Positions 3,434-56,137 of a stretch of DNA of 64,000 nt are shown in pieces. The notes under the pieces are model-generated. The model had not been told where the DNA came from. It saw only the letters and a list, made by a program, of their open reading frames with translations, and did no database searches. A program made the position numbers and the translations under genes. The DNA lies in assembly GCF_029962835.1 (NCBI RefSeq), contig NC_080584.1, positions 81,000,862-81,064,861 of the forward strand, in the 5' to 3' direction. Each line of letters starts with the position of its first letter. Position 1 is the first letter of the stretch. The stretch is from Magnolia sinica (taxonomy: Eukaryota; Streptophyta; Magnoliopsida; Magnoliales; Magnoliaceae).

Positions 3434-5802
3434 CATACAGTAGGGTCTGTGATTGTGATGGTTGGATTACCACAAGTGTATGTCACGTGTGCAACGACAG
3501 CATCCATGTGTAAAGGGGATGGTGCACATGTTAGAGATTGGAGCCATTCATCAGGTTGGACACACCTCACAATAGCATTGACCCAAATAAAAGGGTCGCG
3601 GCTTAGGTGTATCCCTGACCGTCTATAGTTGTCTTATATCCGTTGAATATTTATTTACCATCCTATCCATTGATAAGGACAAAAATGTTAGGAAATTATG
3701 TTGGATATACTTAAAAATAAAAAATAAAATAAGGTTCGGTGATTTCATTTTACCAGGCTGAATCACGTAAAATATATGCTGTCCTTAAAGCGTGATTCGC
3801 CTCCTTATCCGGGTGAATTACACGATGGGTCCAATAAGGAGAGGCTATCTGGAGGATCTGATGGAAGGGGAGAGATTTGAGTTTGAGTTGATGGAATTTG
3901 AACCGGAATGGTCCAGTTTATATAGACACCAGGGAGTGGACTATTGATAGGTGGCCATCAATGGTTCGGAACGTTTAAAAAACGTTTCTAACCGTTGATC
4001 ATTAATTTCAGTCGTTTCTGGTCATCGAATCAGGAAGATCTAACCGTTGGATCACATTATCCATCCATTTTCAGACCGTTGTGACTTTCAAGATAGCTAG
4101 CCAGTTTCAGAAATGGTTGACCGTTTTGGATTGATAATTGGTTGTTCTTAGTCGCTCTAACCGTTGGATCACATTGTCCATCCACAATGTATACATGCAA
4201 AGTGCGTCAACTAACGCCACTACAGCCACACTGCCCGCGACCACACCCGAGCTCGAGCGCACACACGAGCGTCACAATCTCCAAAGCTTCAAGTAAGAAT
4301 GTTACGCAAACATCCTTATATAAACCACGATTTTCTTCTTTTCATTTCCGACGTGGGACAAAAGCACACACTGCGATTTTCGATTTGAAATTCCCAAAAA
4401 ACATTTTCGTGGTAAAATCCTGAAATTTTGAATATTTGATTTTTTTTTTTCCCGAAAAAGCACAAATCTCAACAAAAAAGATCTTGATTAAAGCACCGCA
4501 CAAATATGAGCTTGATCTAAAACTTTTGTGGTCCCATTAGTTTCTTAATAGTCAATTATCACTATTTTTATATGGTGTGGCCCACCTAAGATTTAGATTT
4601 GCTGTATTACTAGGTTTATAACCTAAAATGATGTGGCAAGATGAATGGATAAAGTGGATACAAGGCACATATATCACTGCATCACACTCAGATTTGGTAG
4701 TGACCCTTAAGTACCAATGTGGGTATGGAAAAGCTAGGTAGGCCCACCGTGATGTATATGTTTTATTAATGCCATCTGTCCATTTAGCCGGATCATTTTA
4801 TGGCATGCGCCCAAAAATAATACAATTCCAAATCTCAGTTGGACTACCCATTAAAATTCCTCGGGGACCACAAAAGTTTTGAACCAAGACGATATTTGTA
4901 TTTTTCCTTCAACGTGGTTTGTGAAACCTAATTAATGGATTGGATGGTAAATAAATGTCACAGTGGGCTTATCAGCTTAGGAAGTTTTTAATGTGTTGAA
5001 TCATTACTTTTTCTAGTGGTGTGGTCCACCAAAGAATTAGATTTGATTTATTTTAGTGCTCCTGCCCTAAAATGAGCTGTTAAAATGGATGGACAACACG
5101 TGTTTTTCAAGAGCCGCAAAATCAGGTCCATTAAAAGAAGTAGGATACTCTTTAAGGGAGTGGATGGCACCATGTACTACCCCACCAGGACCTACCTGAG
5201 GGCTCTATAAGGAGCTATGTGGGCTACCATGATGTATATATTTTTTCCATGCCCTACATCTATTTTGATAGATATATTTATGTTAGTTGAAATCTATGTT
5301 TTTCCTTTCTCAGGTCAACGTAACCTTAAGAAGAGTTTAGATGGCAAATAAATATAGGCTTGAGAAAGTTTCCAACTGTAGGAGTTTAATCCCCACTGCT
5401 TTCTATGGTGTGGTCCACTCAAGCCTTCAATCTACTTCCTTTCAAAACTCATGCCTTAAAATGATATGTCAAAATAAATGAATGGTGTAGATAAAACATA
5501 TACATCATGGTAGGCCCCACACAGCCCCAAACAGGACCATTCATCTCTAGCTAGGCCCTGGTTGGGGTAGTACCTAGTCGCCCCCACATAGTGCATTAGG
5601 TATTACCTGGGTAACAGGTCAGTAGATGTTTTGCATATCCAGGCTGTCCATCAGTTTTTCCACCTTATTTTAGGGCATGATCCTAAATATGAAGAGAGTC
5701 AAATCTCAAGTGGACCACACAGTAGGGATTGAATGGTTACCATGAAAAACTCTAGAGAGGCTAAAAAAGTTTTAGATGAAGCTGATATTTATGTTTTCCT
5801 TT
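3434..5802. repeat. Tandem duplication, copy 1 (2.37 kb)
   Basis: This block is followed head-to-tail by a second copy at 5803-8342. The junction is sharp: the end of copy 1 (ATGTTTTCCTTTCA) runs straight into the start of copy 2 (TACAGTAGGGTCTGTG), which repeats position 3436. It contains an LTR-like block and two foldback repeats (about 4738-5122 and 5217-5523). The 93-codon frame at 4142 lies within the LTR-like block and is not considered a gene. Confidence 0.85.
3686..4474 (+). mobile_element. Probable solo LTR
   Basis: It begins TGTTAGGAAATTATG, ends CTCAACA, and is flanked by AAAAA on both sides (3681-3685, 4475-4479). A TATA-like GTTTATATAGAC lies near 3917. The same unit appears at 6246-7005 by the local duplication and independently in reverse at 54201-55028. 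A truncated relative lies near 15540-15810. No internal retrotransposon region is attached. TG...CA ends and a 5-bp flank fit an LTR, but the flank is low-complexity, so this is moderate evidence. Confidence 0.5.
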
Positions 5803-5933
5803 CATACAGTAGGGTCTGTGATTGTGATGGTTGGGTTACCACAAGTGTATGTCACGTGTGCAACGACAGCATCCATGTGTAAAGGGGATGGTGCACATGT
5901 TACAGATTCGAGCCATTCATCAGTTGGACACAC

Positions 5934-5936
5934 GTT

Positions 5937-5973
<37 letters not shown>

Positions 5974-6115
5974 GGTTTAGCTTGTTAGTGCACACCCATG
6001 TCAGTACACATACTCCATGTTAGCCACCCTCGCTAGGGATCGATACCAAGACCTCAAGTGTTGAAACGAGGTATCTCCACTCAATCAGCCAGTTGAGCTA
6101 TGGATTTGGGTGGAG
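5934..6115 (-). mobile_element. tRNA-derived SINE
   Basis: On the minus strand it has a tRNA-like head with box A (TAGCTCAACTGG) and box B (GGTATCGATCCC), a short body and a poly-A tail, seen here as about 30 T residues. It is flanked by GTTGGACACAC at 5923-5933 and 6116-6126, an 11-bp exact target duplication. The unoccupied site is present in the tandem copy near 3559. Confidence 0.88.
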
Positions 6116-6245
6116 GTTGGACACACCTCACATAGCATTGACCCAAATAAAAGGGTCGGGGCTTACGTGGATCCCTAACTGTCTATAGCTGTCTTATATC
6201 CATAGGATATTTATTTACCATCCTATCCATTGATAAGGTCAAAAA

Positions 6246-7005
6246 TGTTAGAAAATTGTGTTGGATATACCTAAAAATAAAAAATAAAATAAGGTTTAAT
6301 GATTTCATTCTACTAGGCTGAATCACGTAAAATAGATGTTGTCCTTAAAGCGTGATTTGCCTCCTTATCCAAGTGAATTACACGATGGGTCCAAAAAGGA
6401 GATACTATCTGGAGGATCTGATGGAAGGGGAGAGATTTGAGTTTGAGTTGATGGAATTTGGACCAGAATAGTCCAGTCTATATAGGCACAGGGAGTGGAC
6501 TATTGCTAAGTGGCCATCAATAGTTCGGAACATTTGAAAAACGTTTCTGACCGTTGATCATTAATTTCAGTCGTTTTTGGTCGTCGAATCAGGAAGATTT
6601 GACTGTTGGATCATCATTGCCCATCCGTTTTCGAGCCGTTGTGGCTTTCAAGGCAGCTAACTAGTTTAAAAAACGATTGACCATTTCAGATTGATAATTG
6701 GTTGTTCTTAGTCGCCTATAAAGTCCTGGCTCATTTTAGATCCATCCACGATGTGTATATGCAAAGTGCGCCAACTAGCGCCACTACAGCCACATTGCCC
6801 ACGACCACGCCCGAGCCTAAGCGCACACACAAGCGTCACAATCTTCAAAGCTCCAAGTAAGAATGTTATACAAACATCCTTATATAAAACCACGATTTTC
6901 TTCTTTTCATTTCCGATGTGGGACAAAAGCACACACTGTGATTTTTAATTTGAAATTTTGAATATTTGATTTCTTTTTTTACCGAAAAAGTACAAATCTC
7001 AACCA
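6246..7005 (+). mobile_element. Probable solo LTR, duplicate copy
   Basis: Second copy of the 3686-4474 unit, carried along by the tandem duplication. It starts TGTTAGAAAATTGTG and has a TATA-like sequence near 6480. The opposing frames at 6708-6948 lie inside it and are not genes. Confidence 0.5.
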
Positions 7006-8536
7006 AAAAGACCTTAATTAAAACACCGCGCAAATATGAGCTTGATTTAAAACTTTTGTGGTCCCGATGGTTTTTTAATAGTCAATTATCACTGTTTTTA
7101 TATGGTGTGGTCCACCTAAGATTTAGATTTGCTGTATTGCTAAGTTTATAACCTAAAATAATGTGGCAAAATGAATGGATAAAGTGGATATAAGACACAT
7201 ACATCACTGCATCACACTCGGATTTGGTAGTGACCCTTAAGTACCAACGTGGGTATGGAAAAGCTGGGTAGACCCACCGTGATGTATATGTTTTATTAAT
7301 GTCATCTGTCCATTTAGCCGGATCATTTTATGGCATGCACCCAACATTAATACAATTTCAAATCTCAATTAGACCACCCGTTGAAATTTTTTGGGGACTA
7401 CAAAAGTTTTGAACCAAGATGATATTTGTATTTTTCCCACAACCTGGCTTGTGAAACCTAATTAATGGATTGGATGGTAAATAAATGTCATGGTGGGCTT
7501 ATGGGCTTAGGAAGTTTTTAATGAGTGTTGAATCATTACTTTTTCTAGTGGTGTGGTCCCCCGTAGAATTCGATTTGATTTATTTTAGTGCTCCTGTCCT
7601 AAAATAAGCTGTTAAAATGGATGCACAACACGAGTTTTTCAAGAGCTGCAAAATCAGGTCCGTTAAAAAAAGTAGGATACTCTTTAAGAGAGTGGATGGC
7701 CCCATGTTCTACCCCACCAGGACCTAGGTGAGGGCCCTATAAGGAGCTATGTGGGCTACCATGATGTATATTTTTTTTTCCATCCCCTACATCTATTTTG
7801 ATAGATATATTCATGTTAGTTGAAATTTATGTTTTTTCTTTATCACGTCAATCGTAACGTAACCTTAAGAAAAGGTTAGATGGCAAGTAAACATAGGCCT
7901 TAGAAAGTTTCCAACTGTAGGAGTTTAATCCCCACTGCTTTCTATGGTGTGGTCCACTCAAGCCTTCAATCAGCTTCCATTCGGAACTCATGCCTTAAAA
8001 TGATATATCAAAATAAATGAATGGTGTAGATAAAACATATACACCATGGTAGGCCCCACACAGCCCCAAACAGGACCATCCATCTCTAGCTAGGCCCTGG
8101 TTGGGTTAGTACCTAGTCGCCCCACGGATTGCATTAGGTATTACCTGGGTAATATGTCAGTAGATGTTTTGAATATCCAGGCTGTCCATCAGTTTTTCCA
8201 CCTTATTTTGGGGCATGATCCTAAATATGAAGAGAGTCAAATCTCAAGGGGACCACACCGTAGGGATTGAATGGTTACCGTAAAAAACTCTAGAGAGGCT
8301 AAAAAAGTTTTAGATGAAGCTGATATTTATGTTTTCCTTTCATCAACATCAATGTAAACTTATAAACTGGTTCAATGGCAAATAAACATTCCACTGGGGT
8401 AGGCACTAGCAAGTTTTTAATTGTGCATGTTCAACTATCACTGTTTCCTTTGGTGTGGTCCACTTGAGATTTAGATATGCTTTATTTTTTCGATGATGCG
8501 CTAAAATAAGCTGGAAAAACTAATAAATGGTGTAGA

Positions 8537-30403: not shown

Positions 30404-31012
30404 ACAAATAAACTTCCCTTTAATATTATTCCTTAAACACAACTAACCATGTTATCATTTCAGCAGCTTAAAGAATGGCTTTCTCACTTGGTGATTAAGA
30501 CCGTTCATCTAGTGGGCCTACCGTGGATGGGCCATGTGGCAAGAACCCCACAGATCATAGATCACAGATCACATATTAGATGTTCAAATCAGTATAAAGG
30601 ATGGTATGAGACAAGGGTCCAGATTTCAATATTTTACTGTGCATGGCTGGGATCTCTGATCTCCATGTGGCCCACTGATAGACGTTGATGAAGTACCAGT
30701 GGGGTCATCAACATTGGAGGATTGGAGTCTTGGAAGTGGTAGCGGCAGAGATCCCACGTGGCTCATCTAAGGTGGTATCAATTAGATGAGTGGTCTGGAT
30801 CGGCACTTAAGGCCCAAGGTACTAGCTGAGCCATGCCGGTTTGGGCCTAGCATAGTAAGCCCAAGTCCGAGCCTAGAAAATGATGGTTCAGCCCTAGATC
30901 CTTGGATCACGTGGGCTATGCATCCACAAAGAAATGGACATTCATAGGAATGAAACCTAAGGTTTACATTCAAGATAGATGGATTATTGATGAAGGATTG
31001 GAATATTATATT

Positions 31013-31560
31013 TGTATGATGTTGTGGGGAAAATCGAACTAATTCCTGACACAGGGAGAACAACCATTATTTAGAAGTGATATATGTTCGAGCTGGGGTG
31101 ACCGAGGTCTGAGTAGAAGGGCGATCGGTATGGGACAATTAATTTCTCTGAGCTGGACATCTGAGCTGTAAGAGATTGTATGATGTCTTGGGGAAAATCG
31201 AACTAATTCCTCACACGGGAAGAGCAACCGTTATTTACAAGTGATATATGTCCGAGCTGGGGTGACTGAGGTCCGAGCAGAAGGGCGATCGGCATGGGAC
31301 AATTAATTTCTCTGAGCTGGACATCTGAGCTGTCAGAGAACAAAGCTAGGTAGGAGAAGGATAGGAATATTATATTTGTATGATGTCGTGGGGAAAATCG
31401 AACTCATCCCTCACACGGGAAGAGCAACCGTTATTTACAAGTGATATATGTCCGAGCTGGGGTGACCGAGGTCTGAGTAGAAGGGCGATCAGCATGGGAC
31501 AATTAGTTTTTTTGAGCTGAACATTTAAGCTGTTAGAGAATGAAGCTAGGTAGGAGAAGA
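31013..31560. repeat. Three tandem units of 164-200 bp
   Basis: TGTATGATGT-TGGGGAAAATCG starts each unit at 31013, 31177 and 31377. Each unit contains GTGATATATGT-CGAGCTGGGGTGA and GGGACAATTA. Units two and three differ in length through an extra AAGCTAGGTAGGAGAAGGAT segment. This is typical of an expanded U3 enhancer array. Confidence 0.88.
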
Positions 31561-38797: not shown

Positions 38798-39529
38798 TAG
38801 AGCTGGCATCGAGCCGAGTCGGACCAAGTTAGGGCTGACCCGACTCGATCTGGTTTTAAAATATGCCTGCCCCGAATTTGACCCAACTCGGTACAGAGTC
38901 TAGCATACCCTGGACTGATCCGAACCGAGTCCGAACTGGTCAAAAATACCTAGTCGAGTTGGCACCGAGTTGGATGGAGAGATGACCTAGGGAGTAGAGA
39001 GAAGAGAAAGAAAGAGGAGTAGGGTGGTGATGGTGGTGGGTTTCAGCCAGATTTGGAAGAGGAGATGAGGGATGGAGAGAGAGAGAGTTTGGGTTTAGAT
39101 TGAGGTCAGGTGCGATGGATAGGTTTAGAGATATTTAAAAACTAAGGTTATCCACACACACACAGAGACACACACACGAATCGGGTTCGGGTGCGGCGGG
39201 TAGGTTTAGAGATATTTAAAAACTAGGGTTATATATATACACACACACACACACGAATCGGGTTCGGGTGCGGTGGGTAGGTTTAGAGATATTTAAAAAC
39301 TAGGGTTACACACACACACCCCCCAAAATTTGAGTCGAGTGGTGTTTTGGATTGAGTCAAGTCTAATGAATCGAGTTTCGTGTCAAGTCGGGTCGAGTTA
39401 CTGGGTTACTCGGACTCGATTCAATTTGAATTCGGATTGGACGAATCCTACTCAGTTCGAACCGACTCACCCATTCAATTCAAATTGAGTCAGGTTGAAC
39501 AAGTCGGACATGCCCCGTGCCCTACTCTA
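38798..39529. mobile_element. hAT-like element with a minisatellite
   Basis: Ends TAGAGCTGGCA and CCCTACTCTA are weakly inverted and the 8-bp flanks GCACTAGA and GCACAAAA match at 6 of 8. The interior has GAGTCGGGTCGAGTT-type words, related in style to, but not clearly the same as, the GCTCGA family. Long frames on the minus strand (147 codons at 38500-38943) cross the boundary and are artefacts. Confidence 0.5.
39105..39320. repeat. Minisatellite of three ~75 bp units with CA runs
   Basis: Three consecutive units each contain GGTTTAGAGATATTTAAAAA followed by CTA-GGTTA and an (AC)n or (TA)(CA)n run. The second and third also share GAATCGGGTTCGGGTGCGG. It lies inside the hAT-like element. Confidence 0.85.
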
Positions 39530-39537
39530 GCACAAAA

Positions 39538-40336
39538 TGTGTTTCCAGATGCTGCATAATCGAATTGGGTGATGACCTAGTATCAACCATATCAATGGTG
39601 ATGGGATTTTGTGAGCCCTACTATGATGTTTGTGTTGTATCCATGCCGTCCATATACTTTTCCAGCTAAGTTTAAGACATGGACCCAGCATATCCAAAGC
39701 TCAATTGAATCACACCATATGAAATAGTAATGATTTCATGTCTACTGTTGAAAACTTCTTTAGGGTACAAAAGTTTTGGATAAATGTGATATTTGTATTG
39801 TCCCTTAAATGAGGTTTGTGACCTTATGAAAGGTTCGATGGTATATGAACATCACATGGAGACCTAAGAAGGGTTCTAATTAAGAAAGGTTCAACGGTTG
39901 ACATCATTATCTTGAAAAATTAAATGGATGGCATTACATTGCGGTGGGCACCATGGAATCCTGTCACCATGGGAAGCGGATTGCATCCGACCTCTTTAAG
40001 CATTCGACCAGATATGTGTGGGGGCTCATTGTGATGTATTTGTTTATCCACACCATCCATTTCTTTTCTATATAATATATATTAATATATTTGTGAAAAA
40101 CATAAGGTAGATCCAATGCTTTAGTAGACCATACTAGAAAAATAAACTTAGGTTGCATTAAATGCACAAAGCATTAAATATAGGTCGCACTAAATGCAAG
40201 TGTCATTTCTGGTATGGTCCGTACTAGGAGGGACGGATTTGCCTCATTTTTAGACCCATACCTAGAAAGGATAGGAGATTTGATTAGTAAGGGCATACTT
40301 GTTTCACTAAACCCTATAAAAATATAAAGGAAATGT
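39538..40336. other. Intergenic, degraded foldback
   Basis: A foldback relative spans about 39610-39955 (GTGAGCCCTACTATGATGTTTG ... CATTGCGGTGGGCACC). A second partial one follows near 40019. Then a TTGCATTAAATGCACAAAGC motif shared with 16560 precedes the duplication. No gene. Confidence 0.45.
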
Positions 40337-40864
40337 ATAATGATTATAAATTATTTTAATTATCTCTTAACAACTATTTCATTTCACCGATCATTTTTAT
40401 GTTTGATTTATTAGTGGTAAAATAGTAATGATGACACATTTTCTTTACATTAGTGAAAATTTTTCTTATTAAAATATATGCTTAGCCATCTCTAATAGTA
40501 CAACTCCACCAATCAAATCTCGCCACGTCATGAGGCCAACCGATGAAGGTGGTGAGGGCCTCACTACCAAATTTGTGCCGAAATCAGCTTAATTTAACAC
40601 TCAAGCCAAAACAGAAGAAATAATGTGAGATGGGACCTCACCCTTGATTTACACAGCGGTTTATAGATTTATTTTCATCAGATGAAGGGTCTGTATTTCA
40701 TATATACAATGTGATTGGCTGTCCACTCAAATCAACGGTGGTTGTTTTCTCCCAACTTGCTTCCTGTGGTGCTGCCCACCTAACTCACTTCCCAGCCAGA
40801 GTCTGCGGCCCCTGGTATATTGCACTGAAGCATATGATGGATAATTTGAATTTCATTCATACAT

Positions 40865-41018
40865 CACGTGGGCCCCACATCTGCCTGGCACCACTAGAAA
40901 GCACCCCTTTTTAAAACAGTGGTGAACTATCTCAGGAATGTAGCCCTTAGTTTCCTGGAAACCATCACCTCAGCCATCCTACCCAAAACCACCATACCTT
41001 TTTAAAGTCTATATATGC
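40865..41018 (+). promoter_or_regulatory. WIP promoter: G-box/TCP-type site and TATA box
   Basis: CACGTGGGCCCCAC (40865-40878) overlaps a G-box core (CACGTG) and a class I TCP-type site (GTGGGCCCCAC). CTATATATG (41010-41018) is the likely TATA box, 61 bp before the ATG. The G-box/TCP sequence is the end of a foldback-like half element (CCTGTGGTGCTGCCCACC ... CATACATCACG). Both are conserved in the duplicate. Confidence 0.6.
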
Positions 41019-41078
41019 AATCCATCCTCTATTGAAATGATTCACTGACACTCAAAGCTACAGAAAGGAAGAAGAGAA

Positions 41079-41333
41079 ATGAAGTTCTTCAACAAGGCCT
41101 GCATAGCTGTTACAATTGGAGCTGCTCTTGGGCTTAGAGATCAAGTGATCAAATCCAATTCCCCGACTCTTAGAAGGAATTGGACGGCGATCGGATCATC
41201 GGCCCATGTTAGGCTCATTACCAACGGTTCTGATGGCCCGATAGAGAAGATTGCAGCTCGGAGAGGGAGACGTAAGGCATCCGAGGAGTCGCTCCGGATG
41301 GTTGTGTACTTAAGTTGTTGGGGACCCAATTGA
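41079..41333 (+). CDS. Wound-induced WIP family protein (DUF3774 type)
   Basis: An intronless 84-codon gene. The N-terminal part has a small hydrophobic helix (KACIAVTIGAALGLRDQ, residues 6-22), matching the family pattern of a helical AxxVGAxxALKDQ segment. The middle is basic and Ser/Arg-rich. The C-terminus is ASEESLRMVVYLSCWGPN, and the family's usual tail is ESLRxxMYLSCWGPN. Family members are small plant proteins induced by wounding and, in Arabidopsis, often by hypoxia; the biochemical role is unsettled. The ATG is the first one after the TATA box and sits in AGAGAAATGAAG. No secretion signal cleavage site is obvious. It lies in copy 1 of a tandem duplication with a broken sister at 45584. 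Confidence 0.9.
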   Translation: MKFFNKACIAVTIGAALGLRDQVIKSNSPTLRRNWTAIGSSAHVRLITNGSDGPIEKIAARRGRRKASEESLRMVVYLSCWGPN

Positions 41334-42535
41334 AGTGTCCAAAACTTGGGATAAGGTGAAAATCAATGGCCAAGATGAAGATCATGTTTAGTAACTTTCT
41401 TTTGTAATTATACTCCACATCCTTCCCTCATAAAACTTCAATTTCAGGAGGATGAGATAAAGGATATTTAAATGTGTAGAAATGAAAGTTATATTTGAAA
41501 TCCTCTTTGCATTCTTTTATCTCCTTTTGGTCTTATATATGAAAGGATGAACTTGAGATAATGGTGGGGATGGTTACATGCGACAGAGTTGTAATGACTG
41601 TAATGAAAAAAATGACCTATAGTGGCTATTATTTGACAATAATGGTAGGTTAAAAGACTGACATAGTTTTTTTTTTTTCTTTTTTCTTTTTTCTTTTTAA
41701 AAGGTCTAACCATAACAGCCATTACAACCTATATCATTTAGCATTATTATTATTATTATTATTTAGAAAGTTAATCTAGAGATAGACATAGCCGCTCTTC
41801 TACTATATGGTTTATGTCGTCTCATTAACCCTTTGAGAGATCTACACAATCTGAAATGACCAAGGAAAATAAAATTCTCTTGCTCTTGGGATTAGGGTTC
41901 CAAAAGGTCCACCTTTTCTAACTTCATAGTAGACCTCCCAAATAATTGAACTTCATAAGATTTTATAAAGATTCAGTCAAGATTAGGTCGAATTGACTTG
42001 ACTCACCGAAGATTGAGGACTCAAGAGAACTTAAACAAAGGTTGATTCAAGACTCAGTGAAGTGTGTACTGACAGTGTTCCTTGTACTAACAACCTAACA
42101 GAAAAAAAAAAGACTCTACAATATCTATAAGATTTCAATCCTGAGTCATGGAAAACTTAGATCGAGTTACTTTGAACACTTTTGAGTTGAGCCGAGTCTT
42201 TGAGTTTAAAAACTAAGTGGCTCATGGGTTTCTAATACATTTTTTTTTTCTTTGCATATTCAGAATTTTGAAAGCTATACAAAAAATGATGTAATTGAGA
42301 TTTTTTCAGACTTGGTTGAGTTCACTAGACTCGCCCTGACTCAGTAGACTCCCGAGTTGAGATTTTGAGGTTTAAGAACATAATATCTTTATCATGTAAC
42401 AAAATAAATCATATGATGTTAATTAAGATAAATGCATGAGGTGGGCCACACATGCGGAACGGTGGATGTATGGCGTTTTGGAGGTTTGCTGGTCCACATG
42501 CATTCAGTGCAAACCACACCCACGTCTTGAGCTTG

Positions 42536-42931
42536 AGCCCCACCATGATGCATGGGTTTTATCCACACCTGTCCATCCATTTTACCATATCATATTAGGG
42601 CTTATATCCAACGTTTAAGTGGACCACACCACAGGAAGTAGGGTGATAATGACAACCACCGTTGAAACCTTCCTAGGGCCCACCGTAATGTTTATTTGCC
42701 ATCCAATCTGTTCATAAGGTCACACGGACCTGGATGAAGGGAAATCACAAATATTAACTTGATCCAAAACTTCTGTGGCCCTCAAGAAATTATCAATGGT
42801 AAGCGTTTAATCTCCACCGTCTGGTCCAGTTGAGCCTTGAATCTGCCTCGTTTTTTGACATATACCTTAAATTGATATGGAAAAATGGATGGATGTTGTG
42901 GATAAAATCCATACATCACGATGGCCCTACA
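42536..42931. repeat. Foldback repeat (duplicated at 47081-47449)
   Basis: Left end AGCCCCACCATGATGCATGG; right end CATACATCACGATGGCCCTAC. The arms share ATCCACACCTGTCCATCCAT and ATGGATGGATGTTGTGGAT. Non-coding. Confidence 0.7.
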
Positions 42932-43128
42932 GATCCCCTGCGAGTGCCGAGCTGGGGAGATGAGCGAACGTACACGCAGATATTTTTCATCCACAAGTGG
43001 GTCCCACACCATGAATGATTAGGCCAAAATTCCAAGCTGTTCAACTGACGGTTACAGCACACTTTACTTAAAAACGTTTAAAATATAGGACTCGAATTGT
43101 GCAGCGTAGTACACTGCTGGAAAAGATA

Positions 43129-43750
43129 TGGGGCCCCACCATGATGTATGTGTTTTATTTACCACGTTCGTCTTTTAAATTTATTTTACAGCAAGATCCC
43201 AAAAATAAAGCAGATACAATTCTCATGTCGACCACACTGTGGGAAACAGTAGTGATTGATCGCACACCATTAGAAACTTCTTAGGGCTATAGAAGTTTTG
43301 GATCAAGCTAATATTAGTGGTTTCCATCATCGAGACCTCTGTGACCTAATATACAGGTGAAATGGCAAATAAACATAACATTAGGCTCTAGAAGTTTTTA
43401 AGGATATGTTTGAATGCATGTAAGTTATTTTAAGTTGCAAGTGACTAACCCGTGAAAGTCACTTACAGGGATGTGACTTCTCACCTTAATCTCCTGCAGT
43501 TTTTTGATAGATTTGTCTGGAAGCGACAAGCTGTAAATTACTAAGTAAATTTTCTCCCCCAAACACCACGTCACTTTCCACTTACCTAACTTACAGACAT
43601 CCAAATGGGCCCTAATGATGGTTATTTAATCGACCCGAGTAGTCCACCTGAGATTTGGATATGCCGCATTTTTGAGTTAATGGTCTTAAGATGAGCGGGA
43701 AAAATAGATGGATGGCATGGATAAAACACATACATCATGGTAGGGCGCAC
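43129..43750. repeat. Foldback repeat containing a MITE
   Basis: Left end ATGGGGCCCCACCATGATGT; right end CATACATCATGGTAGGGCGCAC. Interrupted at 43402-43612 by the Harbinger-type MITE. Its duplicate is at about 47651-48819. Confidence 0.72.
43402..43612. mobile_element. Harbinger-type MITE, 211 bp
   Basis: Ends GGATATGTTTGAATGCATG and ACAGACATCCAAATGGGCCC are inverted, flanked by TAA (43399-43401, 43613-43615). The interior has TAAGTGACT/AGTCACTTA words in inverted arrangement. It is present in both copies of the 3.93 kb duplication, so it predates it. Confidence 0.82.
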
Positions 43751-44499
43751 AGTATTTTTCTAGTACATCACAGCACCAACTTCGGTGCTGGGTGCTGGAA
43801 TACGCAATCTGGTTGGCCGTTACTCTGGTGACAGTCTTTTTTCAGTATGCTGGTGGCGTAGCTGACGGTGACATAGCAGTTTCTGTCTAAATAATCTAAG
43901 ATGGTGAGGCCACCTGATACACGGCTCCGATCTCTTAAACATATGCCACTTAATAGCCTTTATCTATTAAGGCCCACTTATTTCACGGTAGCAGATTAGG
44001 TACAAGCGGCCTGGCCTCACCCAGCAGGGTGTGGTCCTGACCGTGGGACCCACCTTGATGAATGTATTGTATATCCACACTGTCCATACGTTTTTCCAGA
44101 TCATTTTAGGTCATGATCACAAAAATAAAGCAGATAGAAATGTCAGGTGGACCATGCGATCAGAAACAGTGGTGTTGGACAGCCACAATTAAAAACTTCC
44201 TGGGTCACCGTAATGTAACTTTTATTTTCCATCCAACCTGTTGATAACATAAAAAAGACCTGTTGATAATCACCATAATGATTATAAGTTATTTTAATTA
44301 TCTCTTGCCCATAATTTTTATGTTCGATTTAATAGTGGTATAACAGTAATGATAATACATTTTCTTTACATTAGTGAAGAAATTTTCTTATTAAAATATA
44401 TGCTTGGCCATCTCTAGTAGTACAACTCCGCCAATCAAATCTCGCCATGTCATCAGGCCACCACTAGGGTGGTGAGGGCCTTACTACCTAATTTATGCT

Positions 44500-45071
44500 T
44501 AGGGGTGTACATGAACCGAGCTCGGTCAACTCGCTCGACTCGGTTTGAAAAAGCGCGAATTGGCTAGGTTTGAAGTTGAGTTCGATCTGAGTCGAGGTGG
44601 TTTTTAGAGGTCGAAAATGAGTTCGAGCTGGCCCCAACTCGACTTGACTCGGTTTGATATATAGCTCGAACCTGGTTCGACTCGGATTGACTCAGGTATT
44701 CTTTGATGTTGCTCACCAAGTGTTTGATGAAATGACTCAACGAAGTGTTGGCCAGTGGCTAGGAAGGTATGTTTCATCAAGCAAATTTCTGTTTTTCTTG
44801 ATTTTGATGTTGCTTACAAGCTGTTTGATAAAATACCTTTAAAACCGCTGTTGGTGTTTTACATTAAGTGAGAATTTAAAGGTGCAGTCCATATGTTTGT
44901 GAAAATGCTGCATAGGCGAAGTCGGCTCGATCTTGGCTCAAACTCGGGCCTGAGCTGCTGACCGAATCGAGCTGAGCTGGCCAGTCAGGCTCGAGGACCG
45001 AGCCAAGCCAAGTTCGAACTGAGGTCAGCTAGTGGCCAGCTCGACCCGTTTCAACTCGTTGTACACCCCTA
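44500..45071 (+). mobile_element. hAT-type element, GCTCGA family, 572 bp
   Basis: Ends TAGGGGTGTACA and TGTACACCCCTA are perfect 12-bp inverted repeats. The flanks TTTATGCT (44492-44499) and TTTGTGCT (45072-45079) are an 8-bp duplication with one mismatch. The unoccupied site survives at about 40570 in copy 1 (ATTTGTGCCGAAATC). Best reference copy for the family. It carries GTTGCTCACCAAGTGTTTGA and no transposase. Confidence 0.95.
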
Positions 45072-45369
45072 TTTGTGCTGAAATCAGCTTAATTTAACAC
45101 TCAAGTAATCCAAAACAGTAGAAATAATGAGAGATGGGACCCCACCCTTGATTTACACAGCGGTTTATAGATTTATTTTCATCAGATGAAGTCTGTATCT
45201 CATATATATAATGTGATTGGCTGTCCACTCAAATCAATGGTGGACGTTCCCTCCCAACTTGCTCCATTTGGTGCTATCCACCCAATTCTCTTGCAAGCCA
45301 GTGTCTGCGGCCCCTGGTATATTGCACTGAAGCATATGATGGATACTTTGAATTTTATTCATGCATCAC

Positions 45370-45521
45370 CACGTGGGCCCCACATCTGCCCAGTACCACT
45401 ATAAAGCACCCCTTTTTTAAAGGGTGCTGAACTATCTCAGGAGTGTAGCCCTTAGTTTCCTGAAAACCATCACCTCAGCCATCTTACCCAAAACCACCAT
45501 ACCTTTTTAAAGTCTATATAT
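45370..45521 (+). promoter_or_regulatory. Promoter of the broken WIP copy
   Basis: CACGTGGGCCCCAC (45370-45383) and CTATATATG (about 45514-45522) are retained at nearly the same spacing as in copy 1, so the control region is intact although the reading frame is damaged. Confidence 0.6.
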
Positions 45522-45583
45522 GCAATCCATCCTCTATTGAAATGATTCACCGATACTCAAAGCTATAGAAAGGAAGAAGAAAA

Positions 45584-45840
45584 ATGAAGATCATCAACAA
45601 GGCTTGCATAGCTGTTACAATTGGAGCTGCTCTTGGGCTTAGAGATCAAGTGATCAAATCCAATTCCCCAGCTCTTAGAAGGAATTGGATTTCGATCGGA
45701 TCATCAGCCCATGTTAGGCTCATTCCCAACGGTTCTGATGGCCCGATAGAGAAGATTGCAGCTCGGAATGGGAGACGTAAGGCATCCGAGGAGTCGCTCC
45801 GGATGGTTGTCTATACTTAAGTTGTTGGGGTCCCAATTGA
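45584..45840 (+). pseudogene. WIP family gene copy with a 2-bp frameshift near the 3' end
   Basis: The reading frame follows its sister at 41079 closely (KACIAVTIGAALGLRDQ, GSDGPIEKIAARNG, ASEESLRMVV) to codon 76. A CTATAC in place of GTAC (near 45811-45816) adds two bases, and the frame stops at 45820 after 78 codons. The bases for the conserved LSCWGPN tail and its original stop are still present out of frame at 45817-45840. It may be expressed as a truncated protein. Because the family's most conserved motif is lost, I call it a pseudogene with reservation. A sequencing or assembly slip in the TATA-like run cannot be excluded. Confidence 0.8.
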
Positions 45841-47080
45841 AGTGCCCAAAAATTGGGCTATGTCCAAAATCATGACCTCTCTCGAACAAGTCCGCCATTT
45901 ATCGCGTACAAGTCCAGGATAAGGTGAAAATCAACGGCCAAGATGAAGATCATGTCCAATAACTTTCTTTTGTAATTAAACTCCACATCCCTCCTTCAGA
46001 AAACTTCAAGTTTGGGATGATATTTAAACGCGTTGGAATGAAAGTTATATTTGAAATCCTCTTGCATTCTTTTATAACCTTTTGGCCTTCTATATGAAAG
46101 GATTGTTGTAATTAAAATTCAATGAACTCAAGATAATGGTGGGGATGATTATGTGCTACAGAGTTGTAATGGCCGTCTTGGAAAAAAAAAGTGACCTATA
46201 TGAACTATTATTAGATAATAATGGTCAGCTAAAAGACTAATACAGTTTTTTTTCTTTTCTTTTTTTAAATTTTATTTTAAAGATCCGATCATAACAGTTG
46301 TTACAACCCATATCATTTACTACTACTATTATTATTATTAATTAATTAATTAATTAGTTAATAAGTTAATCTAGAGGTAGAAATAGCCGCGCTTTTGCTA
46401 GATGGTTTATGCTGTCTCATTAACCCTTTGAGAGATCTACACAATCTGAAATGACCATGGAAAATAAAATTCTTTTGCTCTTGGGATTAGCGTTTCGAAA
46501 AGTCCACCTTTTCTAAGTTCATAATAGACCTCCAAAATAATTGAACTTCATAGGATTTTATAAAGACTCAAACAAGATTAGGTTGAATTGACTCGACTCA
46601 TCGAAGATCGAAGACTCAAGAGTACTTAAACGAAGGTTGATTCAAGACTCAAGTTTCTACAATATCTATAAAATTTCAATACCGAGTCATGGAAAACTTA
46701 GATTGAGTTTCTTCCTGAGACTTTCGAGTTGAGCCAAGTGTTAGAGTTTAAAAAGTAGTGGTTCATGGGTTTCTAATACATATATTTCTTATTTTGCATA
46801 TCTAAAATTTGGAAAGCTATAAAAAATGGCTGTAATTGAGATTTTTTCAAACTTGGTTGAGTACTTCACTAGACTCCCGAGTTGAGATTTTGAGGTTTAA
46901 GAACATAATATCTTTATCATGTAACAAAATAAATCATATAATGTTAGTTAAGATAAATGCATGAGGTGAGCCACACATGTCGAACGGTGGATGCATGGCG
47001 TTTTGGAGGTTGGTTGGCCCACATGCATTCAGTGCAAACCACACCCACGTCTTGAGCTTGGCACAGGCAGGGATCTGTGG

Positions 47081-47449
47081 GCCCCACCGTGATGCATGGG
47101 TTTTATCCACATCCGTCCATCAATTTTACCATATCATTTTAGGGCTTACATCCAACGTTCAAGTGGACCACACCACAGGAAACAGGGTGATCTTGATTTT
47201 TATTTGCCATCCAATCTGTTCATAAGGTCACATAGACCTGGATGAAGGGAAATCACAAATATTAGCTTGATCCAAAACTTCTGTTGGGCCCCAAGAAATT
47301 ATCAATGGTAAGCGTTTAATCTCCACTGTCTGGTCCAGTTGAGCCTTGAATCTGCCTTATTTTTGTACGTATACCTTAAATTGATATGGAAAAATGGATG
47401 GACGGTGTGGATAAAACCCATACATCGCGATGGCCCCTCAGATCCCCTG
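47081..47449. repeat. Foldback repeat, duplicate of 42536-42931
   Basis: Left end GTGGGCCCCACCGTGATGCA; right end CATACATCGCGATGGCCCC. It is shorter than its partner because a segment around the middle (CACCGTTGAAACCTTCC-type) has been lost. Confidence 0.7.
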
Positions 47450-47926
47450 CGAGTGCTGAGCTCGGGAGAGGCACGAACGTACACGCAGATATTTTTCATC
47501 CACAAGGTGGTCCCACACCATGAATGATTAGGCCAAAATTCCAAGCTGCTCAACTGACGGTTACAGCACACTTGTACCTAAAAACGATGGACGGTTTAAA
47601 ATAACTGACTCGAATTGCATAGCGTAGCACACAGCTGGAAAACATCTGTGCGCCCCACCATGATGTATGTGTTTTATAAGCGACGTTCATTCGTCTTTTC
47701 AATTTATTTTATGACATGATCCAAAAAATGAGGCAGATACAATTCTCATGTTGACCACACCATAGGAAACAGTAGTGATAGAGGCCCACCATTAAAAAAA
47801 CTCCTCAAGGCTACAAAAGTTTTGGATCAGGCTAATATTCATGGTTTCTATCATCCAGATCTGTGTGACCTAATATACAAGTTTGATGACAAATAAACAT
47901 TACATTAGGCCTTAGGAAGTTTTTAA

Positions 47927-48682
47927 GGGCATGTTCGGATGCCTGTAAGTTATTTTAAGTTGTAAGTGACTTATCACTTTTGGGGAAGTGACTTCTCATC
48001 CTACCTCCTCACAGTTTTTTGATAGATTTGCCTATAAGTAGGGGTGTACATCAAGTCGAACCGAGTCGAGCTGGCCTCAGCTCGACTCGGCTCTATCCTC
48101 AAGCCTGACTTGCCAGCTCAGCTCAGTTCGGTCAGCAGCTCGGACTTAGTTCAAGCCAAGATCGAGCCGAGTTCACCATTGAGTCATTTCCACAAACACC
48201 AGGACTGCACCTTCAAAATCTCTCTGTATGTGAAACAGAAACAATGGTTTTATAGGTATTTTATCAAACACCTTCTAAGCAACATAAAAACCAAGGAAAA
48301 AAGGATATTTGTTTCACGTACATTCCTTTCTTGCCACTTGCCACACTTTGTTGAATCATTTTATCAAACACTTGGTGAGCAACATCAATGGCAAGGTAAC
48401 CGAGTCACCGAATTGGTTCGATCCGAGTCGAGTCGGGCTGGGGCCTGCGCGAACTCCGTTTAAACTCATTTTCAAGCTAAAAAAATTAGCTCGACTCGGC
48501 TTGAACTTAGCTTCGAACGCTTTTTCCAGCCAAGTCAAGCGAGATAACCGAGCTAGCTCCGTTTATGTACACCCCTACCTGTAAGTGACTTAGACATTGT
48601 AAGTTACTTATAGGTAAATTGTTTCCCCTAAATACGTAAGTCACTTCTTATTTACCCAGCTTACAGGCATCCAAATAGCCCC
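47927..48682. mobile_element. Harbinger-type MITE, duplicate of 43402-43612, split by hAT
   Basis: Ends GGGCATGTTCGGATGCCTG and ACAGGCATCCAAATAGCCCC are inverted. Without the hAT element and its duplication it is about 209 bp, as in copy 1. The left flank is TAA (47924-47926). Confidence 0.8.
48039..48577 (-). mobile_element. hAT-type element, GCTCGA family, 539 bp, reverse orientation
   Basis: Ends TAGGGGTGTACA and TGTACACCCCTA are perfect inverted repeats; flanks CCTATAAG (48031-48038) and CCTGTAAG (48578-48585) differ at one base. The family core is on the minus strand (ACTTGGTGAGCAACATCAA near 48371). The 139-codon and 91-codon frames inside are translations of the repeat, not genes. Absent from the corresponding site in copy 1 (near 43515). 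Confidence 0.94.
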
Positions 48683-49100
48683 AATGGTGGTTATTTAAGC
48701 TGGATGTATAGTCCACCTGAGACTTGGATATGCGCATTTTTTGGGCTAATGGTCTAAAATGAACTGGAAAAATAGATGGAAGGCGTGGATAAAACACATA
48801 CATCATGTCAGGGTGCACAGAGCTTTTCTAGCACATCACAGCACCAACTTCGGTGCTAGGTGCTAGAATACGCAATCCGGTTAGCCGTTACTCCGGTGAC
48901 AGTCTTTTTTCAGTATGCAGGTGGCGTACGTAACTGACAGTGAAATAGCCCGAGTTTCTGTCTAAATAATCTAGATGGTGAGTCCCACCTGATGCACGGA
49001 CCCGATTTCTTAAACACATGCCACTTAATAGGCTTTATCTATTAAGGCCCACTTATTTCACGGTAGCGGATTAGGTACCCAGCACGGTGCGATCCTGATT

Positions 49101-49533
49101 GTGGGACCCACCTTGATGCATGTATTGTATATCCACGCTGTCCATACGTTTTTTCAGATCATTTTAGTGCGTCAGAACAAAAAATAAGCAGATCGAAATG
49201 TCAGGTGGACCACGCGATAAGAAACAGTGGTGTTGGACGGTCACCGTTCAAAACTTCCTGGGGTCACCGTCATGAACACTGTAACTTTTATTTTCCATCC
49301 AACCTATTGATAACATCAAAAAGACCTGGATGAAGGGGATAAAGGAAGTATCAGCTTGATCCAAGACTTACATGGCCCACAAGAATTTTTTAATGGACAA
49401 TCACCACTGTTTCATGTAGTGTGATATTTCTTAGATTTTGATCCACTTTATTTTTGGGCTCATACCATAAAATGAGCTGGAAAAACGAATGGACGGTGTG
49501 GATAAATAATACATACTTCAATGTGGGTCCCAT
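49101..49533. repeat. Foldback repeat overlapping the duplication end
   Basis: Left end GTGGGACCCACCTTGATGCA; right end ACATACTTCAATGTGGGTCCC. The left half (to 49326) is shared with 44043-44262 in copy 1, where it is cut at the duplication junction, so the junction lies within this element. Confidence 0.75.
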
Positions 49534-49833
49534 CTTCAGGGCTGCACCGTGTTGGTTGAGGCCGGGCCGCACCTAATATACTCCCTGATTTCAATTCGCA
49601 CGTGCGGATGGGCTCCATCGAGGCGGACGAGGATTGCCTGTAGCGCCTGGCTGCAGGGGATTCGTGTAGTACTAAGCTCCGTGGAGCCTACCGTGGTGTA
49701 TGTGTTATATCCACGCCGTTCATCCGTTTCTCCTGGTCATTTTAGGGTTTCAGTCCAAACATGAGGCATATCCAAAACTACATTCAACTACCCCACAGGA
49801 AACGGTGTGTACCCAAACACCTGCCCTTGAAAA
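49534..49833. other. Intergenic with a half foldback
   Basis: A half foldback (GTGGAGCCTACCGTGGTGTA at about 49681, through TCATTTTAGGGTTTCAGTCC) precedes the next hAT-like element. No gene. Confidence 0.4.
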
Positions 49834-50360
49834 TAGAGATGTACACGAGGCCGCGCTCCGCTTAGTCATTGAGCCTGGTCTTGCTTGGCTAACTGGGCTC
49901 GGTTCGATCAGTAGCATGGGCTAGTTCAAGCCGAGTTCGAGCCTCTAATATTTTCTTAAACACATGAAGTACACTTTTAATTTCTCACAATATGCAAAAC
50001 AATAACAACGATTTATTGGTATTTCATTGGACAGACAGTAGACAACATTAAAATCAAAATACAATAATAATTTTATGGTATAAAGTTTTTTTTTTTTTAG
50101 TGATTTGTTTCTGTGTACATACATTCCTCACCTTTGAACAATTACAGGAAAAATGAATTCATCCAAAACAATATTTGGTTGAGTCATTTCATCAAACACT
50201 TGGTGAGCAACATCAATGTCAAAATAACTAAGTCACCAATTCGATCGGAGTTCAATTTGACTTGTAGTACAATCCTAATCATTTCGAGCACTAAAAATCA
50301 GCTCAACCCAGCTTGAACATAGTTTTAAACCGGGTCTAATCGTGCTTTTTTTGAGTCGAA
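49834..50360 (-). mobile_element. Degraded hAT-type element, GCTCGA family
   Basis: One end, TAGAGATGTACACG, is present; the family core lies near 50195 on the minus strand (ACTTGGTGAGCAACATCAA). The other end is lost, as the sequence passes into a foldback fragment (GCCCACCATGATATTTAT near 50372). No target duplication can be scored. Confidence 0.6.
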
Positions 50361-51125
50361 ATCTTCTTGGCCCACCATGATATTTATATGTGGGATGAAG
50401 GGAAAACATACATCTTAGCCTGATCAAAAACTTCCGTGGCCCCGAGAAGGTCTCAACACTAGGCATTCAAACCCTACTCCTTGTGGTGTGGCGCATTCCT
50501 GTTTTGGAGCACGTCCTAACATGATCTGGCCCAAGAAGAGGATATCAATACTTCAAGCCACCTGATTAACGGCTCGGATCGAGCACACATGTTAAAAGAT
50601 ACCGTGGGGCCCACCAGTTAAAGAAGCCGGAAACCACGTGAAAACCTGTTGGCTGTACCACAGCATTCTTTAAAAGATAAGAACCGCCACGTGTTCCGCG
50701 CCTCCTCGTATCAATACATCCGTTTCTTTCAATTTATCGTAGCGTTTCACGAGAAATTGGAATCTCGTTAACGTTAATATGGAACATTTGTTTTCTCGCG
50801 ATTATCTCAATATATGCCTCATTTCAAGGCAGGGCCCATTGGTTCGGTGATCCTAACTGTTGGATTGATGGACCCCACCGTCGATGCAGGCTCTATAAAA
50901 ATCTAGAAATCTTGGCGTTATCGTTTAATCTGGACCGTTCACGTATTTTTTTGTCTGAAAATGCACTGCACCGGTATTTTCAGCCACGAAAATTAATTAG
51001 TTTTTATCCTCAACCCTCAAATGATTTTATGTGGCTGAAAATACACGGTATCAAAATGCATTGTACCGCTTTACATTTTCCTCCACAGAAAATTCAGAGG
51101 GAGCGGATAAGGTGCGGCCCTTAAA
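50361..51125. other. Intergenic, with a short exact hairpin
   Basis: Less repetitive than its surroundings. It holds a G-box (CCACGTGTT near 50687), a TATA-like CTCTATAAAAATC (50891) and an exact 14-bp inverted repeat GTATTTTCAGCCAC (50974-50987) / GTGGCTGAAAATAC (51031-51044). A 70-codon frame at 50912 has no ATG start and is not called. Confidence 0.4.
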
Positions 51126-55891: not shown

Positions 55892-56137
55892 ATGAGTTAT
55901 CTTACCAGGGTTTGGACGGCAGCGAGCGTCGTCGCCGTGCAAGGCAACACCGATCAGTGGCAGAAATGTAATTCCAGCACCAGATCCGTCCGAAACGATC
56001 AAAACCGCACCTCCTCCGGTTCCCGGCCGATCTCCGGCAGCGGCGGCGGCTCCGATTCCGTTGTCTTAAATGGGAGCGAGAACGGAGACGAGTCGATCCG
56101 GAGAGTGATGTATATGAGCTGCTGGGGACCGAGTTAA
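55892..56137 (+). CDS. Wound-induced WIP family protein (DUF3774 type), divergent
   Basis: An intronless 81-codon gene. It opens MSYLTRVWTAASVVAVQGNTDQ, the family's aromatic/helical start in the At4g05070-like subgroup, and ends DESIRRVMYMSCWGPS, the diagnostic tail. The centre is Ser/Gly/Asn-rich and low-complexity (about residues 28-60). It is too different from the genes at 41079 and 45584 to belong to the recent tandem duplication, so it represents an older family branch next door. The DNA is GC-rich, unlike the flanks. Long minus-strand frames at 55529-56002 and 55902-56411 are antisense shadows. The start is the first ATG downstream of the TATA box in this frame. Confidence 0.9.
   Translation: MSYLTRVWTAASVVAVQGNTDQWQKCNSSTRSVRNDQNRTSSGSRPISGSGGGSDSVVLNGSENGDESIRRVMYMSCWGPS

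Follow-up and report, generated by a model that had tools for sequence, protein, structure and literature searches.

We analysed a 64-kb stretch of the Magnolia sinica genome (C12:81000862-81064861, hereafter the window), in which a WIP (wound-induced protein family, DUF3774) gene lies in a block that has been duplicated head to tail. The DUF3774 genes and the kinds of elements present are in keeping with a flowering plant. The window belongs to the 84.6-Mb contig C12 of a 1.84-Gb assembly in 127 contigs. Self-comparison and alignment placed copy 1 of the block at 40337-44262 (+ strand, 3926 bp) and copy 2 at 44275-49328 (+ strand), with 12 bp between them. An initial annotation had proposed this duplication with copy 2 ending at 49326; the alignment bore it out, and the match extends two bases further. 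Copy 2 carries two insertions of the hAT type, here called A and B, and copy 1 is free of them. With both left out, the copies differ at 432 of 3752 aligned sites (11.5%; Kimura two-parameter distance, K2P, 0.126). The duplication is real, old and well preserved.

The WIP gene of copy 1 (41079-41333, + strand) is intact, encodes 84 amino acids ending in LSCWGPN, and scores 48.3 bits against PF12609 (E 2.2e-12), above the curated cut-off of 27.3 bits. Its counterpart in copy 2 (45584-45820, + strand; 78 amino acids) has lost LSCWGPN and falls below that cut-off with 25.7 bits (E 2.5e-5), its frame being shifted after residue 77 by a 2-bp alignment gap near 45810. Judged by this predicted frame, the copy 2 gene is a truncated descendant and no intact PF12609 member. 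The genome holds 25 PF12609 matches, 17 on C1 (two of them fragments of a single site) and 8 on C12; the copy 2 gene is absent from them. Since 24 of the 25 matches reach the last profile position, 80, the end lost in copy 2 is conserved.

The gene and its promoter have diverged less between the copies than the rest of the block (53 of 751 sites versus 379 of 3001; Fisher p 9e-6), and for this reason both WIP genes were probably constrained for a while after the duplication. An identical run of 66 bp at 40980-41045 spans a TATA-like sequence. Within the coding sequence, the nonsynonymous (Ka 0.051) and synonymous (Ks 0.103) distances are not distinguishable (p 0.32). Local conversion is possible as an alternative to selection, because the gene does not contain the longest of all identical runs (70 bp, at 42345-42414), and a palindromic repeat, foldback 1, shows a K2P of 0.082, as low as the 0.084 of the promoter.

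A query of 411 bp from the gene region gave three matches in the genome, every one inside copies 1 and 2. The block was also compared with 29 fetched loci, five of which were left out of the listing, four as the locus itself (L001-L003 and L029) and one as the third WIP gene (L023). In the other 24, the matches of both copies (E <= 1e-8) are confined to foldback or hAT positions, and therefore no ohnologous block was seen there. That third WIP gene lies downstream, outside the block (55892-56137, + strand; 81 amino acids, intact; 53.2 bits, E 6.5e-14). Among six fetched loci it is most similar to a WIP gene at C1:3192481 (46% identity, E 4.6e-18), which suggests a common origin of the C1 and C12 stretches.

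Insertions in copy 2 and the length of the copies

Insertion A (44500-45071, + strand) is 572 bp long, and insertion B (48039-48577, - strand), inverted with respect to A, is 539 bp long and nested in an older miniature inverted-repeat transposable element (MITE). Both open with TAGGGGTGTACA and close with its complement, and their sequences are 72% alike. Each is bounded by an 8-bp target-site duplication (TSD) with one mismatch: TTTATGCT and TTTGTGCT for A (44492-44499 and 45072-45079), and CCTATAAG and CCTGTAAG for B (48031-48038 and 48578-48585), both pairs matching at 7 of 8 positions. In both TSDs the left copy has A, versus G in the right copy and in copy 1; these mismatches are consistent with deamination of a methylated cytosine on the opposite strand. 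Reading by eye confirmed the proposal that both empty sites are preserved in copy 1, where the target octamers are single, TTTGTGCC at 40572-40579 for A and TCTGGAAG at 43516-43523 for B, with no duplicated octamer.

A first look across the genome returned 7628 candidates for A and 7032 for B, which are unscored and not copy counts. For each element 40 candidates were scored, the best relative reaching 85% identity. Both ends were located in 23 of 39 relatives examined (29 of A, 10 of B). In 16 of these 23 the two TSD copies agreed at 7 or 8 of 8 positions, a count made by taking the best end pairing, without a shuffled control, and comprising at most 12 independent cases: L033, L039, L040 and L047 lie close together on C6 with a near-identical target, and L060 has its target in common with L061. 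An 8-bp TSD is a hallmark of hAT elements. The ends and TSDs support assignment of A and B, as putative non-autonomous MITEs, to hAT.

The length difference between the copies had been equated exactly with these two elements. Counted with one TSD copy each, A takes up 580 bp and B 547 bp, and without them copy 1 measures 3926 bp and copy 2 3925 bp, so the sum does fit. The two elements are not the sole cause, since our alignment revealed 41 further gaps totalling 347 bp, of which copy 1 is without 173 bp and copy 2 without 174 bp, leaving a net of -1 bp. The largest of them measure 61, 54, 36, 20 and 19 bp, and none is of element size; the outcome named beforehand as refuting the claim, further large gaps in copy 2, was thus partly obtained. 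When signs were assigned at random to the 41 gaps, the net was within 1 bp of zero in 1.4% of trials, and with copy 2 ending at 49328 the length difference becomes 1128 instead of 1127. Because the 41 gaps cancel, the exact equality is a coincidence, and one that depends on the chosen end point. For the same reason we dropped the exact length arithmetic as evidence.

Older repeats and the duplication junction

The MITE that hosts insertion B is present at the same position in both copies, as had been proposed. By eye and alignment it occupies about 43402-43612 in copy 1, with TAA on each side, and 47927-48681 in copy 2, where it is split by B and flanked by TAA and CAA. By the 3-bp TAA TSD seen in copy 1 it may be Tourist/PIF-Harbinger-like. 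It sits in foldback 2 (43087-43789 in copy 1). Foldback 1 lies at 42462-42994 in copy 1 and about 46987-47503 in copy 2. Sequence of the foldback family accounts for 11.8% of the window and for about a quarter of copy 1.

Divergence varies along the block (heterogeneity chi-square p 1.8e-9). It is high at 43137-43936 (K2P 0.17-0.23 per 200 bp), around the site of B and the older MITE, and lower around foldback 1 (0.06-0.11). Elsewhere, the most diverged 200-bp segment (41537-41736, 0.256) contains a poly-T tract.

A third foldback (49079-49555) spans the right end of the duplication. It is an imperfect palindrome, with 340 of 453 aligned bases matching and an axis near 49313, and only its left arm is kept in copy 1 (about 44021-44262). 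The right breakpoint, at 49326-49328, falls within this foldback, in agreement with the initial annotation, and 13-15 bp from its axis. Given a break in the foldback, the chance of one so close to the axis is about 6% by our own arithmetic.

The copies are joined by a 12-bp filler, TTGATAATCACC (44263-44274, + strand), placed between the end of copy 1 (...GACCTG) and the start of copy 2. The first 7 nt of the filler repeat 44241-44247, by way of a 12-bp direct repeat, ACCTGTTGATAA, at 44236 and 44258. Seven of the 12 filler bases are thus the sequence found 22 bp upstream, beside a 5-bp microhomology; in 20000 trials with 12-mers drawn at random from the window, 161 gave an equally good match. 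Direct repeats of 12 bp within 40 bp occur at only 7 non-simple places in the 64 kb, the junction included. For these seven bases the junction has the form of a microhomology-primed, locally templated filler, as in theta-type end joining or template switching. Direct and inverted repeat motifs at joins are regarded as a sign of synthesis-dependent end joining, and rice has insertions that correspond to sequence within 200 bp of a break, according to PMC7407515. Template switching at DNA transposons in animals is described in PMC8277862.

The window contains a second tandem duplication at 3434-8343, with unit 1 at 3434-5802 and unit 2 from 5803 to about 8343, 89-97% identical. By eye, its junction has a 3-bp microhomology, CAT. 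Only unit 2 carries an insert of about 180 bp (5934-6113). This insert contains a poly-T run, has an 11-bp target duplication, GTTGGACACAC, and by eye resembles a short interspersed element (SINE). We considered a preference of insertions for the second copy, seen in three of three cases (A, B and this insert), and rejected it because chance easily yields such a result. Overlapping tandem repeats of 384 bp (83%) and 187 bp (89%) lie at 30992-31559.

Proposed course of events

On these observations we propose an account that we hold to be likely as a whole: one end-joining duplication, two hAT insertions around the same time or later, small changes between the copies, and a frameshift. The starting unit would have been a 3.9-kb segment that held a single WIP gene together with several palindromic elements of greater age, the MITE being already present in one of them. 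In a single illegitimate joining, an end near the foldback axis would have been attached head to tail to the left boundary near 40337, and part of the short filler would have been copied from sequence 22 bp away. Such a course would resemble end joining of the polymerase-theta type or template switching at microhomology; both the repair pathway and the place of breakage are what we infer from the junction. Two members of a high-copy hAT MITE group would have inserted independently and in opposite orientations into copy 2, at about that time or later. Substitutions and small indels would have built up between the copies, and the second WIP gene would have gained the 2-bp frameshift that cost it the C-terminal LSCWGPN. 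The frameshift could predate or postdate either hAT insertion, and the suggestion that gene decay was the final step is not borne out.

The order of MITE, duplication and hAT insertions, as first suggested for this locus, is the simplest reading of presence and absence in the two copies; the clocks cannot part its last two steps. Outside CpG sites and the gene region, the copies differ by a K2P of 0.120 (310 of 2813 sites), or 0.060 per lineage; over all sites outside the gene region the value is 0.140, or 0.070 per lineage. Plant substitution rates of 1.5e-9 to 6.5e-9 per site per year would date this event to roughly 9-47 million years ago. The TSD copies of A and B together differ at 2 of 16 sites (interval 0.016-0.383). 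Differences of the C-to-T type are about twice as common at CG (55 of 310) as at CHG (40 of 443) or CHH (174 of 2180), and this CG excess is as expected from methylation.

Several observations weigh against our account. With regard to the insertions, the non-CpG distances to the consensus of relatives are 0.061 for A (26 of 445 sites, 29 relatives; raw interval 0.039-0.084) and 0.059 for B (26 of 462 sites, 10 relatives; raw interval 0.037-0.081), and coincide with the 0.060 of the duplication. The all-site consensus distances (A 0.085, B 0.090) exceed the 0.070 per lineage of the duplication, and the terminal branches of the all-site tree are 0.071 for A and 0.089 for B beside the same 0.070. 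At face value, these all-site figures would place A and B slightly before the duplication; an insertion can be no older than its consensus distance indicates, and methylation with fast CpG decay in the elements inflates all-site values. In copy 1, a 4-bp gap lies about 4 bp past the target of B. With regard to the junction, the other five filler bases (TCACC) are matched only by the 8-mer AATCACCA at 49399, and since the window has 8 occurrences of this 8-mer over both strands, the junction among them, the putative template for them is weak. A breakpoint inside a foldback is itself unremarkable, because foldback-family DNA is so abundant in the window. Since the clocks give one age for the duplication and both insertions, they neither refute nor prove that the duplication came first, and it is solely the empty sites that carry this order.

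The best surviving alternative, which we consider unlikely, is that the hAT elements had inserted before the duplication and were polymorphic, and that an unequal joining between homologs set an empty haplotype beside a filled one. The indistinguishable non-CpG ages would suit such a course, as would the all-site distances of A and B slightly above that of the duplication; it requires both insertions on one haplotype only as well as an inter-homolog event, for which there is no positive evidence. Homologous unequal crossing-over between flanking foldback repeats, in place of end joining, is very improbable. A foldback family that forms about a quarter of copy 1, with a further piece some 460 bp ahead of the left breakpoint (39748-39876), could supply the repeats, but self-comparison of 39000-50500 gave no match at E <= 1e-3 between the sequence immediately left of 40337 and that immediately right of 49328, and a 12-bp filler lies at the junction. 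We give slightly less credence still to the idea that both elements predate the duplication and were lost from copy 1 through precise excision or conversion: the clocks are compatible with it and the 4-bp gap lies close to the target of B, but the target octamers of copy 1 are single and two precise losses would be required. An origin of the duplicated block in misassembly or in a retained haplotype found no support and can practically be dismissed, since copies that differ at 11.5% of sites make a false assembly duplication very unlikely, and they are further set apart by 41 gaps and adjoin, 12 bp from each other, inside one 84.6-Mb contig.

Significance and related systems

In summary, a duplication by end joining with hAT insertions at or after that time, our preferred account, makes three ordinary forces readable and datable in one plant gene: duplication in tandem, insertion of transposons, and loss of a conserved protein end. 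A repair signature can still be read from the well-preserved junction. These are known processes acting in a WIP gene cluster, and no new mechanism is needed. A more far-reaching idea, which we regard as doubtful, is that palindromic transposon remnants serve as breakage sites seeding tandem copies of small defence-peptide genes, a break near the foldback axis being followed by a filler templated 22 bp away. If this were true, foldbacks of the MITE type would help to bring about the growth of WIP clusters instead of only being carried along. The 25 WIP matches of this genome, gathered in two stretches, provide material for testing foldback axes as recurrent duplication breakpoints. Our literature search found no paper joining hAT, MITE, Magnolia and tandem duplication, which is no claim that the locus is unpublished.

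Comparison with described systems showed both likeness and difference. The block lies within a 204-kb stretch of C12 that holds all eight PF12609 matches of that contig, in addition to the 17 on C1. In this DUF3774/WIP setting the copy 1 gene is divergent, with 47.3 bits in the genome search, whereas 16 of the 25 matches exceed 109 bits. Like A and B, the elements BniHAT-1 and BniHAT-2 of Brassica nigra are short, non-coding, ended by inverted repeats and of high copy number (434 and 331 copies, respectively), as given in PMC7385995; their sequences differ from those of A and B, although this comparison was not made letter by letter. Tandem duplications and local insertions in rice (Vaughn and Bennetzen 2014, as cited in PMC7407515) likewise combine a tandem copy with bases matching sequence near the break. 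The rice study is described as dealing with insertions of 10-1000 bp, whereas the unit described here is 3.9 kb long and its copies have diverged by 11.5%.

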